NCBI RefSeq assembly: GCF_001999965.1
Contig: NZ_CP019646.1
Coordinates: forward strand, 372,001 to 436,000
Direction of reading: 5' to 3'
Source of the DNA: Limihaloglobus sulfuriphilus
Lineage (GTDB): Bacteria; Planctomycetota; Phycisphaerae; Sedimentisphaerales; Sedimentisphaeraceae
DNA: 64,000 nucleotides
A model generated the notes under the pieces. The model was not told where the DNA came from and searched no databases. It worked only from the letters and a program-made list of their open reading frames with translations. Shown here piece after piece: positions 5,390 to 54,400 of the stretch (its first letter is position 1; every line of letters starts with the position of its first letter). The position numbers and the translations under genes were made by a program.

Positions 5390-5540
5390 CAGGCTTTAAC
5401 CTGTTCTAATAAGACACACTAAAGTGTTAACTCTAACTGTCATTAAAACGTAGGATAGGCTTCCAGCCTGTCACTAAAACGCAAGCCAGGCATCTCTGCT
5501 TATTTTTCAATGTCAAGCAAGATGCCTGACCTGCATTGGT
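5390..5540. repeat. intergenic mini-palindrome cluster with a 24-bp dispersed repeat
   Basis: Between two convergent genes lie CAGG-CTTTAA-CCTG (5390-5403), ACACT-AA-AGTGT (5416-5427) and a 24-bp unit at 5450-5473. That unit contains AGGCT-TCC-AGCCT and is repeated exactly at 6974-6997 and 7005-7028. It is followed by imperfect CAGGCATC/GATGCCTG-type inverted motifs around 5484-5540. I see no coding potential. Confidence 0.7.
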
Positions 5541-6973: not shown

Positions 6974-7200
6974 GTAGGATAGGCTTCCAGCCTGTCAATA
7001 AAACGTAGGATAGGCTTCCAGCCTGTCATTAGACAATGTCAAGCAGGATGCTTGAGCTGCTTAAGTTTAGAGTACGCCGTTAGAGTTTGCCGTAAGAATC
7101 CACGCTTCAGCGTATTTATTTTCTTACTTAGCAAGCTAAAGCTTGTACTCTTACGCTTAATTTCTTATGCTTGAGCTCTTGCGAACATACTAACAAAAGA
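6974..7200. repeat. mini-palindrome array upstream of mcrB
   Basis: Two exact copies of the 24-bp unit also seen at 5450 lie at 6974-6997 and 7005-7028, 31 bp apart. After them come CAAG/CTTG-type, ACGCT-TC-AGCGT and GCAAGCT-AA-AGCTTG palindromes up to about 7145. The DNA looks non-coding and may simply be a landing area for this repeat family. Confidence 0.65.
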
Positions 7201-23011: not shown

Positions 23012-23400
23012 GTTTAACCTTGAGTAGAGAAAATTCACGAATTTTCTAAGAACGCCAACTCCCCGTAACAACATTAAAATAACCAAAACCGGGCACCAGC
23101 GTTAGCCGGGGTTAATTGTGCGTTTATATGAGGTTGAACGGTTGGAGCAAATTCGTGAATTTGCTCTACAAATGCAAAACCGTCGCGCAGCGCAACCAGA
23201 ACCGCGGCACCGTGACAGGCAGGGCAGGCATCCCTGTTTGCCAGTGTGTTCGTATCGTAATTGTCGTGTATGTAAAGATTAAAAACGGCAAGCAGTATGC
23301 TTGCCCTGCGAATAGCCCACCCCGTCTCGCTTCGTTAGTTATCGCTCGAACTCCAGATCACCCCAGAAAAAAAAGCCAAACACAGTTTTAGGCCTTTGAT
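23012..23400. repeat. intergenic block of mini-palindromes
   Basis: After the insertion sequence comes AAAATTCACGAATTTT (about 23029-23046) and a 31-bp unit at 23139-23169 identical to 10476-10506. Two imperfect inverted motifs of the GCAGGCATCCCTG and GCAAGCAGTATGCTTGC type follow, near 23217-23310. An ORF can be drawn across it (23116-23391) but it is made of these repeats. No gene is supported. Confidence 0.65.
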
Positions 23401-37114: not shown

Positions 37115-39304
37115 TTACCAGTTGATTTCTATTGATTGTCTTGGTTTGTCCGGAGATTCAAAAAAGAGGGTTGAGCTTTTTTCATCCCACTTATAATCAG
37201 AAAAAGCCATATCGTCGATGCTCATCTTAACCGGTTTTGCGGGCAGATAAATACGTGTTACAATTTTTGCATTTTCTGGACAGCTAAGTTTGAAAATAAC
37301 GTTGCTGCCGGATTGTTCCCAGCTCTCAAATCTCGCGGCAGAAGCTATTGGCTCGGCTTTGTCTTTCTTGATTTTGTTAATGTCGAACAGCCATGAGTGG
37401 CTGCCTGGCTTTATTTTCACCCTCTCCAGCACCGGCAGTTCGTGGTGGAAGATGTCAACAAACAATCCTTCCAATTCAAGCGGTTTGTCGCTGACAGACT
37501 CGTCAAGGCAGGCGGCTATAATGTATGGGCCGCGGCGGAGCTGTATGAAATTATTTTCATGCCACTCAAGACCTGCGGCCTTGCAAGCCGGCTTGATTAT
37601 ATTTATATATTTTTCGCCGGCTGCCGCAGAATGGGTGAAATGTGCCGGATGGCAACGTTCAATAAACACTGTTCCTTTGCCGTATTCATATTCACCAGTT
37701 GGCGCATCCTTGTCAAGTCCGAGCTGCTGCATCAGATGCTGGGAGGGGGCTTTATAACTGTTTTCTCCGGAATTCCACCAGCTGGAAACCTGATTGAATG
37801 GATCTGTGTCACCGCCGACATATACAAGAGAGCCTCCATTGGCTACCCATTGGGCAACAGCCTGATTCAAAGCTGGATTTTGCGGCTTGAAAAACTCGTA
37901 GCTTAAAACAAGAACTTTGTAATCATTTAGATATCCTGCAAATCTGGCTGCATTGTCAAGCTGTACCGGCATAACTGGTATTCCGAGTTTAACAAGCGGC
38001 ACTGTCAGGCCGTAAAATCCTGAAAAGTGTTCAATGTCTTTTCTGCCGGCCTTGGAAGGGTCTTTTTCATTTATTTGGGCCAGGCTTTCAGCCGGTTCTG
38101 CACGTTGAAACATGCTTGAATCGGCAATAAACACTCCTATGCCCTTAGTGGCGTTTGTCCAGGTAATCTCCTGCTGGTTCATATCGCGAAGCTGGTTGAA
38201 AACTATGCAAAGCGTCGTAAGGTAATCATCGGGTATGTATGAAGCGTTTTGGGAGTTGCTTGGGTATTTTCGGGTTAGTATTCGGGATGGCCATGGGCAT
38301 ATTTCGTATCGCCAGATATGCGGGTGAAGCAGGGAAGCTATGAGAGTTTCTTTGTAGTTAAAACGATAATCTTGCCAGTCATGTTTTGGGTTATCTTCGA
38401 TAGGGTCGTGCAGAAACCACATTTTGCGCCCCGTACCTCTCACGAGTTCCTGCATAACTCCGTATTCGAGAAAAGCCGTTTCGAATGTCCTCTCCGCAAG
38501 CCTGCCTTGATAAACGTTAGGGGTACGGGCAGTTCCCGTCCATATCTGAGCGATGCATCCGTCAACCACATTTGAGTCAATCAGTGAAGATTGAGGCGAG
38601 ACGATTCCCCACTGTGTATAGTTGATAAGGCTGTGCGTCGGCACGTATATCTTTAGTTCTCGCCCATATTTATGCAGAGCGTATTCTTTTGATTTTTCTG
38701 CAACTCTGCGTATAGCCCGCTGATACAAATAGTACTTCAGGCGGTTGGTCTTGTATTGAGCATCAACCGAGCTGCCAGGTCTTTCGTAGGGTTCATCGTA
38801 GAAAAGCCGCCACTCCCTCTTGAACGCATCAGAAAAGCCTGCGTTTGCCCAGAATTCCGGTTCTTCAAGGTAGATTGCCTTAACTCCGGAGTCGATTATA
38901 GGCTCGAGTTTATCGCAAATATAATCAGCGAACTCGACTGACGGCACAATATAAGGAGTCATTTTTCCGTGCAGCCATTGCGTTCCGTCAGCTCTGGTCT
39001 GCGCGAGTGACATTATGTTGTTCCCATTTAAATCTTTGAAATCCTGGTAGCCGCCCCAGGCTATCCCTGTCATAAAATGAGGCACATAGCCTTTTTCCAC
39101 CCAGGATTTTATGTAGTCAGGACGGTCATCGCCCGTGCCGTAAACCATGACAAAATCGTTTCTGAAATCACAAACCGGCTTGAAGGCGGCAGCCTCCTGG
39201 AAGCCTGTAAGCTCGAGCTCTCTGTCGGTTACGAGCCGCGTTGCCTCACTAATATTTATTTGTCCAGCCATAATTATACCTGCTATAACAATCAGCCTGT
39301 GCAT
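37115..39304 (-). CDS. secreted glycoside-hydrolase-like protein, family not assigned
   Basis: A signal peptide (HRLIVIAGIIMAGQINISEA) precedes a 700-residue protein. The first half looks like a TIM barrel: HFMTGIAWGGYQDF, then VKAIYLEEPEFW with paired glutamates, a typical place for a catalytic acid. A middle part with LGIPVMPVQLDN and KVLVLSYEFF resembles the trimerisation domain of beta-galactosidase-like enzymes. The C-terminal 150 residues are beta-rich. I cannot name the family or substrate. It heads a two-gene unit with the TauE-like permease. Confidence 0.72.
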   Translation of the reverse strand: MHRLIVIAGIIMAGQINISEATRLVTDRELELTGFQEAAAFKPVCDFRNDFVMVYGTGDDRPDYIKSWVEKGYVPHFMTGIAWGGYQDFKDLNGNNIMSLAQTRADGTQWLHGKMTPYIVPSVEFADYICDKLEPIIDSGVKAIYLEEPEFWANAGFSDAFKREWRLFYDEPYERPGSSVDAQYKTNRLKYYLYQRAIRRVAEKSKEYALHKYGRELKIYVPTHSLINYTQWGIVSPQSSLIDSNVVDGCIAQIWTGTARTPNVYQGRLAERTFETAFLEYGVMQELVRGTGRKMWFLHDPIEDNPKHDWQDYRFNYKETLIASLLHPHIWRYEICPWPSRILTRKYPSNSQNASYIPDDYLTTLCIVFNQLRDMNQQEITWTNATKGIGVFIADSSMFQRAEPAESLAQINEKDPSKAGRKDIEHFSGFYGLTVPLVKLGIPVMPVQLDNAARFAGYLNDYKVLVLSYEFFKPQNPALNQAVAQWVANGGSLVYVGGDTDPFNQVSSWWNSGENSYKAPSQHLMQQLGLDKDAPTGEYEYGKGTVFIERCHPAHFTHSAAAGEKYINIIKPACKAAGLEWHENNFIQLRRGPYIIAACLDESVSDKPLELEGLFVDIFHHELPVLERVKIKPGSHSWLFDINKIKKDKAEPIASAARFESWEQSGSNVIFKLSCPENAKIVTRIYLPAKPVKMSIDDMAFSDYKWDEKSSTLFFESPDKPRQSIEINW

Positions 39305-41154: not shown

Positions 41155-41158
41155 AGAA

Positions 41159-41342
41159 GGTATACCGCCTGTGCCGTGTAGGAGAGAATTTGCGAGAACC
41201 CTAAATTTTAGGTGGGCAGCCATTACCAGAGTCCATAAGTCCCGTCTTGCGGGCATGTACGAGCCTTTGGGATTTGGCTTCCCTGTGTTCTCTCATCGGT
41301 TCTGCCATATAGTCTGCTATCACGAACACCGCAGTTAATACC
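41159..41342 (-). ncRNA. 6S-like small RNA
   Basis: A 184-nt RNA with its own promoter and terminator. The ends pair (GGTAT...ATACC, then CGTG/CACG). Further in, GAGAAC pairs with GTTCTC and GGGAAGCC with GGCTGCCC. A bubble between these has on its 3' side a small hairpin CCTAAA/TTTAGG, and the apex holds CCCG-CAAGA-CGGG. A long bulged rod with a central bubble and a small 3'-side hairpin is the shape of 6S RNA, which binds RNA polymerase in stationary phase. Length fits. tmRNA, SRP RNA and RNase P signatures are absent. The small-RNA call is firmer than the 6S name. Confidence 0.65.
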
Positions 41343-51462: not shown

Positions 51463-52020
51463 ATGCTAACAGAAAACAGTAAGCGTATTCTTCTCAAAGC
51501 GGCCAAAGAAGCTGTCATTTCTGCTGTAAACGGCGATAAATTCAACCGGATTGAGACGAACGAGCCCGAGCTGCTTGAAAAATGCGGTTGTTTTGTAACT
51601 ATTAAGAATAAAGGACGTTTACGGGGGTGTCTTGGTGTTTTTACTGCATCAAAACCATTGATTGATATGGTTACTGAAATGGCGGCATCATCGGCAACAA
51701 ACGACCCGAGATTCTACAACGACCCAATAACACCCGAGGAGCTGGAAGAGCTTGATATCGAGATTTCAGTGCTCTCACCTTTGAGGCAAACTGACGACCC
51801 CGCTTCACTGAGGATAGGGCAGGAAGGAATATATATCCGACGCGGCATGAGGAGCGGCTGTTTTCTGCCGCAAGTTGCAGAAGAGACCGGATGGAGCGTA
51901 GAGGAGTTTCTTGGAAATTGCTGCACGGGCAAGGCAGGACTTGATTATTATTCATGGAAAGATCCAGATACAAAAGTATATCTCTTTACGGTAGAGATAG
52001 TTAAAGACAGTTTTAAGTAA
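51463..52020 (+). CDS. AMMECR1-domain protein (AmmA family)
   Basis: The conserved core LRGCLG is present in GRLRGCLGVFTASKPL, together with AASSATNDPRF and IEISVLSPLR, and C-terminal FLPQVAEETGWSVEEFL, which completes the domain. The protein is 185 residues, a single domain. In bacteria this family is often linked with Memo and radical SAM proteins. No Memo gene is in the window. A role in modification of an unknown substrate is likely but not shown. Confidence 0.92.
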   Translation: MLTENSKRILLKAAKEAVISAVNGDKFNRIETNEPELLEKCGCFVTIKNKGRLRGCLGVFTASKPLIDMVTEMAASSATNDPRFYNDPITPEELEELDIEISVLSPLRQTDDPASLRIGQEGIYIRRGMRSGCFLPQVAEETGWSVEEFLGNCCTGKAGLDYYSWKDPDTKVYLFTVEIVKDSFK

Positions 52021-52080: not shown

Positions 52081-52108
52081 TTGCATCGCCGCGTAATGAT
52101 AGTAAAAT
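52081..52108 (+). promoter_or_regulatory. promoter of the microprotein unit
   Basis: TTGCAT (52081-52086), a 16-bp spacer and TAAAAT (52103-52108). Transcription from about 52115 would include the structured leader at 52180-52265 and the small ORF at 52316. Confidence 0.55.
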
Positions 52109-52179
52109 ACAATCAAATTAAAAAGTTAATAACACAGCACATCGCGGATAACATCTTTTGAATATGCTTAAGGAGTGTT

Positions 52180-52265
52180 TGCTGCACTTAATCTATTACC
52201 GTCTCAGTACCGGCTTGAACTGAGGGTGATGAAATGCCGGATAGACGTAATAGATGAGTGCGGCA
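52180..52265 (+). ncRNA. structured leader RNA with a long stem and possible pseudoknot
   Basis: TGCTGCACT (52180-52188) pairs with AGTGCGGCA (52257-52265, one wobble). ATCTATTAC (52191-52199) pairs perfectly with GTAATAGAT (52247-52255), and GTCT pairs with AGAC (52243-52246). At the top CCGGC (52210-52214) can pair with GCCGG (52236-52240), and CAGT (52205-52208) with ACTG (52219-52222). The last two are interleaved, the layout of an H-type pseudoknot. It does not match the riboswitch or ribozyme consensus motifs I know. It lies 50 nt before a secreted microprotein gene. Confidence 0.6.
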
Positions 52266-52315
52266 GCGTTTTAAAAATCCGCTTGTGCTCAAATTGAATA
52301 TGAAAGGACATTAAA

Positions 52316-52534
52316 ATGAATGCTTCAGTATATGTAAAGATGATGTTCGCAGCGGCAATAGCAATGTTTGTAATATCAGCACCTTCCGTAGCTGATTATG
52401 ACGTGTCAGACTATATCGGATCGGAGATGCAGCTTTGTGATAGCGGCCAAGACGACTCCCATAATATGGGATGCAAGGCACGCTGCGGCGACGACGAAAA
52501 GAAATGTAATCCTGGTGATCCTCCAAAGAAATAA
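52316..52534 (+). CDS. secreted Cys-rich microprotein, 72 residues
   Basis: AAAGGA lies 7 nt upstream of the ATG. A clear signal peptide (VYVKMMFAAAIAMFVISAPSVA) leaves a mature peptide of about 46 residues, acidic in the middle, with four cysteines spaced C-x11-C-x3-C-x6-C and a PPKK end. The even number and spacing suggest two disulfide bonds or a metal site. It forms a unit with its own promoter, a structured leader and a terminator. No homologue is recognised; function unknown. Confidence 0.65.
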   Translation: MNASVYVKMMFAAAIAMFVISAPSVADYDVSDYIGSEMQLCDSGQDDSHNMGCKARCGDDEKKCNPGDPPKK

Positions 52535-52613
52535 CACTAACTCCTTTTAACTACTAATTACTACTACAAACCTCCATAAAACAGACTATATGTCCCCAAA
52601 ACCCTTAAATTAA

Positions 52614-52652
52614 GGAAAGTTGCTCGCACTGGGCAGCTTTCCTTTCTTTTTT
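52614..52652 (+). terminator. Rho-independent terminator after the microprotein gene
   Basis: GGAAAG-TT-GC pairs with GC-AG-CTTTCC over a short loop and is followed by TTTCTTTTTT. The rest of the gap to 52952 is AT-rich and shows no gene. Confidence 0.85.
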
Positions 52653-52952
52653 GGAATAATCGTCTTTCACGCTTATTGCAGAGTATATGCCTCCCATGAT
52701 ATTTACCTGGAAATGCCGTACAAAGGTTCTGTTCCTGCAAAGTTTTATCTAAATCTCAAATGAAATAGCCTGAATTCTTATTGAATAAAGATTTTTAGCA
52801 GATATAATTAGAGATTATGTAATTACAGCATATAACTGGCCTTTGGCGGCCGTTTTTATATTTTGAATTTGGCAGTCTGCTTAGATTTAGATACGGTTTA
52901 TTGAGTACCACGCTTCAGTTATTTGTAAACTTTGTTTCATTAGGGTTTTAGT

Positions 52953-53612
52953 TTGCAAAAAATTTTTTTTACAGGCAAGTTTATAGTATTGGATGGGCCT
53001 GACGGATGCGGCAAAAGCACACAGGCAGCACTATTGAGAGAAAAACTCATTTCAACAGGCCTCGAAGTGGTGAGCTACAGAGACCCAGGTACTACCAGGA
53101 TCGGTGAAGCCATACGGGAGATACTTCTCGCAACAGAATACGCCGGCATGGGCGATAATGTTGAGGTGCTTTTGTATATGGCGGCACGGGCTCAGCTTTG
53201 GCGGGAGAAAATATCCTCTGACCTTGAAAATGGCAAGTGTGTCATAATGGACAGGTGGCTCTCCAGTACCTGCGCTTATCAGGGCAAAGCCGGCGGTTTT
53301 GGTATTGACAAGGTGATAAATATTGCCCGGGACAGCCTCGAAAGACTCTGGCCGGACATAACCATTATACTTGATATCGACAGCAGCCTCGCGGCGAAAA
53401 GAATCCGGCGTGAACTTGACCGCATGGAACTCAAAGGATGCGGCTACCACAAAATGGTGCGGCAGGGATATCTTGAGCTGGCGGACAAAATGGAAAATGA
53501 AACCGGGGACGTATCAGCTTTATTTAAATTGATCAACGCAGACGATACCCCGGAGTCAATACATTCGAAAATTGTTGAAATACTCATAAATAATTTGGGA
53601 AAAGGTATTTAG
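52953..53612 (+). CDS. tmk: thymidylate kinase
   Basis: Tmk phosphorylates dTMP to dTDP. The P-loop is GPDGCGKST at residues 15-23, the DRW segment is DRWLSSTCAYQGKAGG, and the LID-like Arg region is RRELDRMELKG. The TTG start at 52953 has AGGG 8 nt upstream and gives a protein beginning QKIFFTGKFIVLDG, the normal family opening. The 219-residue length fits. It is followed by rnc. Confidence 0.93.
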   Translation: MQKIFFTGKFIVLDGPDGCGKSTQAALLREKLISTGLEVVSYRDPGTTRIGEAIREILLATEYAGMGDNVEVLLYMAARAQLWREKISSDLENGKCVIMDRWLSSTCAYQGKAGGFGIDKVINIARDSLERLWPDITIILDIDSSLAAKRIRRELDRMELKGCGYHKMVRQGYLELADKMENETGDVSALFKLINADDTPESIHSKIVEILINNLGKGI

Positions 53613-53701: not shown

Positions 53702-54400
53702 ATGGAACAGGCAAAATTAGATGAATTGCAAGAGCTGATTGGATACCGCTTTAAGGATCAGCAGTTGCTGTCTCTGACCTTGACACACACATCGTCAGTT
53801 TCAGACCGAATTGAAAGTAACGAACGCCATGAATTTTTTGGGGATGCAGTTTTAGACCTGGTTATCTGCCAGGAGCTTTTTGAGAAATACCCCGACTATT
53901 CGGAGGGCGATTTGACCAAAATAAAAAGCCGCCTTGTCTCTCGTGAGACCTGTGCGGAGGTCGCTGAGAAAATAAATCTTGTTGACTATCTTTACGTAGG
54001 CCGCGGTACGGGCAGCCGAGGTTTAAAGGGTTCAATCGTTGCCGGCACCCTCGAGGCGCTGATAGCAGGTATTTATATTGACGGCGGACTAAAGCCCGCT
54101 GCGGAATTCATAAACAAACTCTTTGGTGAGCTTGTTGACAGTGCCGACGCCGATGAACACCAGGATAACTATAAATCATTGCTTCAACAGTATTCACAAC
54201 AAAATTTATCGGAATTGCCCATTTATGAGGTAATAGATGAGCAGGGGCCCGAGCATAATAAATGTTTCGAGGTTGAGGTTTCAATCGGCAATGTGCATTA
54301 TTCAAGTGCATGGGGTATCAGCAAAAAGATAGCCGAACAGGCCGCCGCCAAAAAGGTGCTTGAGGAGTTGGGCGTAATAGAAGTACAAAATAAACCTTAA
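53702..54400 (+). CDS. rnc: ribonuclease III
   Basis: Rnc cuts double-stranded RNA in rRNA and mRNA maturation. The endonuclease signature NERHEFFGDAVLDLVI is near residue 40, with the second acidic site in GTLEALIAGIYIDGG. A double-stranded RNA-binding domain fills the last 70 residues (NYKSLLQQYSQQNL to AAKKVLEELG). The 232-residue length is typical. It runs in the same direction as tmk and the phosphoesterase. Confidence 0.96.
   Translation: MEQAKLDELQELIGYRFKDQQLLSLTLTHTSSVSDRIESNERHEFFGDAVLDLVICQELFEKYPDYSEGDLTKIKSRLVSRETCAEVAEKINLVDYLYVGRGTGSRGLKGSIVAGTLEALIAGIYIDGGLKPAAEFINKLFGELVDSADADEHQDNYKSLLQQYSQQNLSELPIYEVIDEQGPEHNKCFEVEVSIGNVHYSSAWGISKKIAEQAAAKKVLEELGVIEVQNKP

Follow-up and report, generated by a model that had tools for sequence, protein, structure and literature searches.

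We found that a long hairpin, a 72-codon ORF and an intrinsic terminator follow one another, in that order, in the genome of Limihaloglobus sulfuriphilus, and we tentatively propose that the hairpin belongs to a structured, lineage-specific 5'UTR which may act in cis on an orphan secreted peptide by altering its translation or its stability. In the window (the whole stretch of 64,000 nucleotides that was analysed), this unit is flanked on its 5' side by an AMMECR1-like gene (51463-52020), on the same strand as the hairpin, and on its 3' side by a thymidylate kinase-like gene (tmk, 52953-53612), both being named from their translations. As a unit of these three parts it looks real.

The folding results showed that the hairpin (52179-52266, + strand) contains 31 nested pairs with small bulges, running from 52179/52266 to 52214/52236 and made up of an outer helix and the pairing CCGGC/GCCGG. 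The energy of the fold of positions 52172-52270 was -39.2 kcal/mol, compared with -24.2 +/- 3.0 kcal/mol for shuffled sequences (z -5.0). Because bulge-rich hairpins of at least 24 pairs are common in this genome, a stricter but simple stem score was adopted, and on both strands of 464 kb of the source genome (a 400-kb sample of genome stretches plus the 64-kb window) the hairpin ranked as the fifth best stem. The four stems that outranked it were the two copies of a hairpin adjacent to an IS21-like element, one dispersed repeat and one stem within a long ORF. The preliminary description had given a leader of 86 nt with more than 20 base pairs; its stem was borne out, while 86 to 88 nt is the length of the hairpin alone, and the leader would measure about 200 nt if the promoter-like pair at 52081-52108 is in use.

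The tip of the hairpin may form an H-type pseudoknot (52203-52240, + strand), in which S1 pairs CUCAGU (52203-52208) with ACUGAG (52219-52224) over 6 bp and S2 pairs CCGGC (52210-52214) with GCCGG (52236-52240) over 5 bp, interleaved with S1. The two interleaved pairings, first described as CCGGC/GCCGG and CAGT/ACTG, are thus both present, and the second extends to the six pairs of S1. The loops of the tip are A, UUGA and GGUGAUGAAAU (1, 4 and 11 nt, the last being L3 at 52225-52235), and these lengths suit the geometry of an H-type pseudoknot. An interleaved pairing as good or better was obtained in 1 of 20,000 dinucleotide shuffles, in 11 of 20,000 mononucleotide shuffles and in 76 of 66,177 genomic 42-mers (0.11%), the dinucleotide and genomic figures having been computed after the feature had been seen. 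The nested fold that includes CCGGC/GCCGG had an energy of -39.2, and that in which CUCAGU/ACUGAG was forced instead had an energy of -33.8, both energies being those of nested folds. Since these nested alternatives exist, the simultaneous formation of both pairings is plausible rather than proven.

The 72-aa ORF (52316-52534, + strand) is preceded by the ribosome-binding site AAAGGA (52303-52308, + strand), located 7 nt before its ATG. Its translation starts with MNASVYVKMMFAAAIAMFVISAPSVA, which resembles a signal peptide by eye, and continues past the signal with a short acidic part of 46 residues in which four cysteines are arranged as C-x11-C-x3-C-x6-C. The codon score of the ORF was +0.10 bits per codon, which is in the top 7% for its size (the median of ORFs of that size is -0.12, and the 5-95% range of long ORFs is 0.04-0.29), while the codon scores of the remaining five frames over it were clearly negative. 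The ribosome site, signal peptide and cysteine pattern that had been read from the sequence at the outset were therefore found again, with codon usage like that of a gene, and the ORF is probably a real gene. The peptide had no match to a known secreted Cys-rich family in Pfam, NCBIfam or the PDB, and its only match in PHROGs was at chance level (E 0.19). No relatives were found in the order, in the class sample, in the phylum-level genome samples, or among GTDB contigs, viral contigs and plasmids. The structure predicted from the single sequence was unreliable (mean pLDDT 55).

The two ends of the unit differed in strength. The promoter announced in the preliminary description, TTGCAT-16-TAAAAT (52081-52108, + strand), is a weak promoter-like pair that scores 8/12 by eye, falls under the cut-off of the scan and is absent from its output; the scan itself calls sites at the same rate in shuffled sequences. 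The strong terminator, in contrast, was confirmed by the scan and by fold energy (52612-52650, + strand): a stem of 15 pairs at 52612-52644 is followed by a T-run, and the fold of 52600-52650 has an energy of -20.7 kcal/mol (z -4.9). Further downstream, at 52781-52857 and upstream of tmk, we noted another promoter-like site, TTGAAT-16-TATAAT, which scores 10/12, better than the pair at 52081-52108, and which has a terminator-like hairpin, TGGCCTTTGGCGGCCG followed by TTTTT, within about 30 nt; an attenuator or a very short RNA is possible there. Elsewhere in the window, a full-length 6S (SsrS) RNA was detected on the - strand at 41158-41340 (69.8 bits), followed by the terminator GGGCTTGAT...ATCAAGCCC-TTTTT.

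New in this analysis is a possible upstream ORF of 22 codons, MKCRIDVIDECGSVLKIRLCSN (52229-52297, + strand), a candidate read from its reading frame and starting inside the putative pseudoknot. A GAGGG motif lies just 5' of its start, and this motif and the ATGs at 52229 and 52234 (the latter an alternative start, giving MPDRRNR) fall in the 3' strand of S1 and in loop L3. Its stop codon, TGA at 52295-52297, is located 18 nt before the ATG of the peptide. The codon score of this ORF is about zero, it contains no regulatory codon run, and ORFs of such lengths are common by chance.

We then searched for homologues of the leader with two single-sequence covariance models, one built on the whole hairpin (R1) and the other on the tip with S1 (R2). 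Only the locus itself was returned above chance from 159 genomes of the order (R1), 397 of the class (R1 and R2) and 392 of the phylum (R1), one-sequence models being weak and the large scans strictly filtered, such that a diverged homologue could be missed. The search in related genomes that the preliminary description had proposed gave its own locus alone, and no related peptide was found in them; nor did either model reveal, in the samples of the order, class and phylum, the recurrence of a conserved core that is seen with riboswitches. Among the contigs, plasmids and phages searched, no homologous leader was found, and a search of viral contigs with the pseudoknot pattern returned none. 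The leader had been said to match no known RNA motif, and this held for Rfam 15 at the gathering threshold; with E values up to 10, Rfam gave two chance matches only (E 0.67 and 2.4), both outside the tip.

Several candidate matches were rejected. Short DNA matches, such as GCGGCAGCG..AAATCCGC, were obtained in several genomes of the order, and the hairpin was kept at none of the loci examined. Covariance matches with E values of 0.03-0.5 per genome, found in hundreds of genomes, occurred at the rate expected by chance and mostly overlapped long ORFs, while those in genomes G014 and G791 skipped the core of the hairpin. The phage matches were only 37-41 nt long. An integron attC site was also discarded, the RYYYAAC/GTTRRRY ends being absent by eye.

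The source genome is a single contig of 3.87 Mb, 99.97% complete, and its family is covered in our genome set by four other genomes from two genera, the source genome being the only one of its genus. Judged from the adjacent AMMECR1-like gene, the closest named relatives are MAGs of the Sedimentisphaerales and Phycisphaerae. The order spoVG-ispE-DedA-AMMECR1 upstream of the unit is present, whole or in part, in several related loci, and tmk was not seen adjoining AMMECR1 in the family genomes examined. The unit is thus located at the point where the conserved gene order stops, a position that fits a segment newly arisen or recently acquired.

Other strong stems were observed in this genome. 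Two copies of an IS21-like element, encoding proteins of 499 and 255 aa, are located at L136:7669-10125 and L141:15311-17767, and both end in a hairpin which is nearly the same in the two copies and very strong, at about -90 kcal/mol. In the window, at 23024-23169 and 23211-23360, there is an inverted repeat of 24 nt whose arms are 92% complementary and 98 nt apart; a second strong hairpin adjoins it. Members of a foldback family, CRGGCTGGAAGCCYG, are present at 5456-5470, 6980-6994, 7011-7025 and 38081-38095, and this family has 50 matches in the genome with at most two mismatches, compared with 1 for the reversed control. The hairpin of the leader resembles these foldbacks in being intergenic and in having a long near-perfect stem, whereas it differs from them in its unrelated sequence, its single copy and its long structured tip.

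The hairpin could instead be an inert foldback, perhaps the remnant of a mobile element, lying by chance 5' of a young ORF and with a coincidental pseudoknot; we consider this unlikely, although it is the most serious of the alternatives. It agrees with the abundance in this genome of foldback repeats (about 50 places for one family) and of strong hairpins that are not leaders, with the location of the unit at the end of the conserved gene order and with its lack of conservation. However, the interleaved pairing of the tip is rare, and the hairpin lies outside the dispersed family: the DNA search and the covariance model both showed the leader to be single-copy in the source genome, contrary to the dispersed repeat that had been named beforehand as the alternative.

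It is improbable that the AMMECR1 transcript ends in this hairpin, as a terminator or stabilising structure, with the peptide gene transcribed from its own promoter further down. The same-strand AMMECR1 gene has its stop codon 160 nt upstream of the hairpin, the scan shows no terminator-like site between them, and TTTT follows the 3' arm of the hairpin; these four T, however, are succeeded by AAAAA, the stem and tip far exceed those of usual terminators, and no better promoter was seen at 52270-52316. When an intrinsic terminator is defined by a compact GC-rich stem, a short loop and at least five T in eight, the hairpin does not qualify as that of the upstream gene, the scan being silent and only TTTT following it. 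Quite improbable is a separate trans-acting small RNA unrelated to the ORF: the fold is compact and stable, but there is no clear promoter, no good terminator directly behind and no Rfam match. Least probable of all is a preQ1-I-like metabolite riboswitch whose H-type pseudoknot would occlude a ribosome-binding site, for which the H-type geometry enclosing the ribosome-binding-like GAGGG and the burial of ribosome-binding sequences in 5'UTR pseudoknots of preQ1-I (PMC11625349) can be cited, whereas riboswitch classes recur and keep a conserved core, no such core was found in the order, class or phylum samples or in Rfam, and the occluded site is that of the short upstream ORF and not that of the peptide. 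The leader is like preQ1-I in its possible H-type pseudoknot holding a ribosome-binding-like stretch and unlike it in the long helix below, which exceeds 20 pairs, the orphan secreted-peptide gene downstream and the absence of an Rfam match and of recurrence.

Control in cis by a structured leader agrees with the hairpin at z -5, the rarity of the stem and of the tip pairing, the gene-like ORF downstream, the strong terminator, the single copy of the hairpin and the geometry of the upstream ORF. Against it we counted the weak promoter, the codon score near zero of the upstream ORF and the frequency by chance of 22-codon ORFs, the many long-stem hairpins of other origin in the source genome, and the lack of RNA or peptide homologues in the genome samples, which gives no covariation in either direction and nothing to gauge selection by. 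That the peptide is secreted and regulated, as first suggested, is reasonable, its parts standing in the matching order, while the suggestion that the leader senses something has no support beyond the fold.

Under such cis control, the 5'UTR of the peptide gene would contain the long hairpin, which could be capped by the H-type pseudoknot, and hairpin and ORF would be transcribed as one unit. In the most concrete version of this reading, the pseudoknot would form and hold the GAGGG and the upstream start codon. Translation of the upstream ORF would bring a ribosome through the 3' arm of the helix, melting it, and this ribosome would stop 18 nt before the start of the peptide, within reach of its ribosome-binding site, such that the two ORFs could be coupled. 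With the pseudoknot intact, the helix would persist as a stable 5' structure, possibly sensitive to RNase III. That the pseudoknot gates a leader ORF which opens the long helix and couples to the secreted Cys peptide is, as a complete scheme, highly speculative; if true, it would be an RNA gate of a new kind.

Leader ORFs can couple to downstream genes, as in ermC-type and amino-acid leader peptides. The candidate ORF is similar to these in that it overlaps a structured leader and stops a short distance ahead of the main ORF, but it has no regulatory codon run (only three Cys codons out of 22) and is unconserved. In the rnc leader of E. coli, a hairpin is processed by RNase III; the helix described here also exceeds 20 pairs, and an RNase III-like gene (named from its translation) is located after tmk, 1.4 kb downstream (53702-54400), but the strong terminator and tmk intervene, and processing is conjectural.

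Surveys of bacterial genomes lead to the expectation that many rare RNA classes are yet to come (PMC11109978). Those surveys rest on recurrence, which is absent for this leader, and as it stands the leader is a well-formed candidate from a single genome and not evidence for a new RNA class. If the proposed control in cis is true, this would be an RNA control element invisible to comparative discovery because it is confined to a single lineage.
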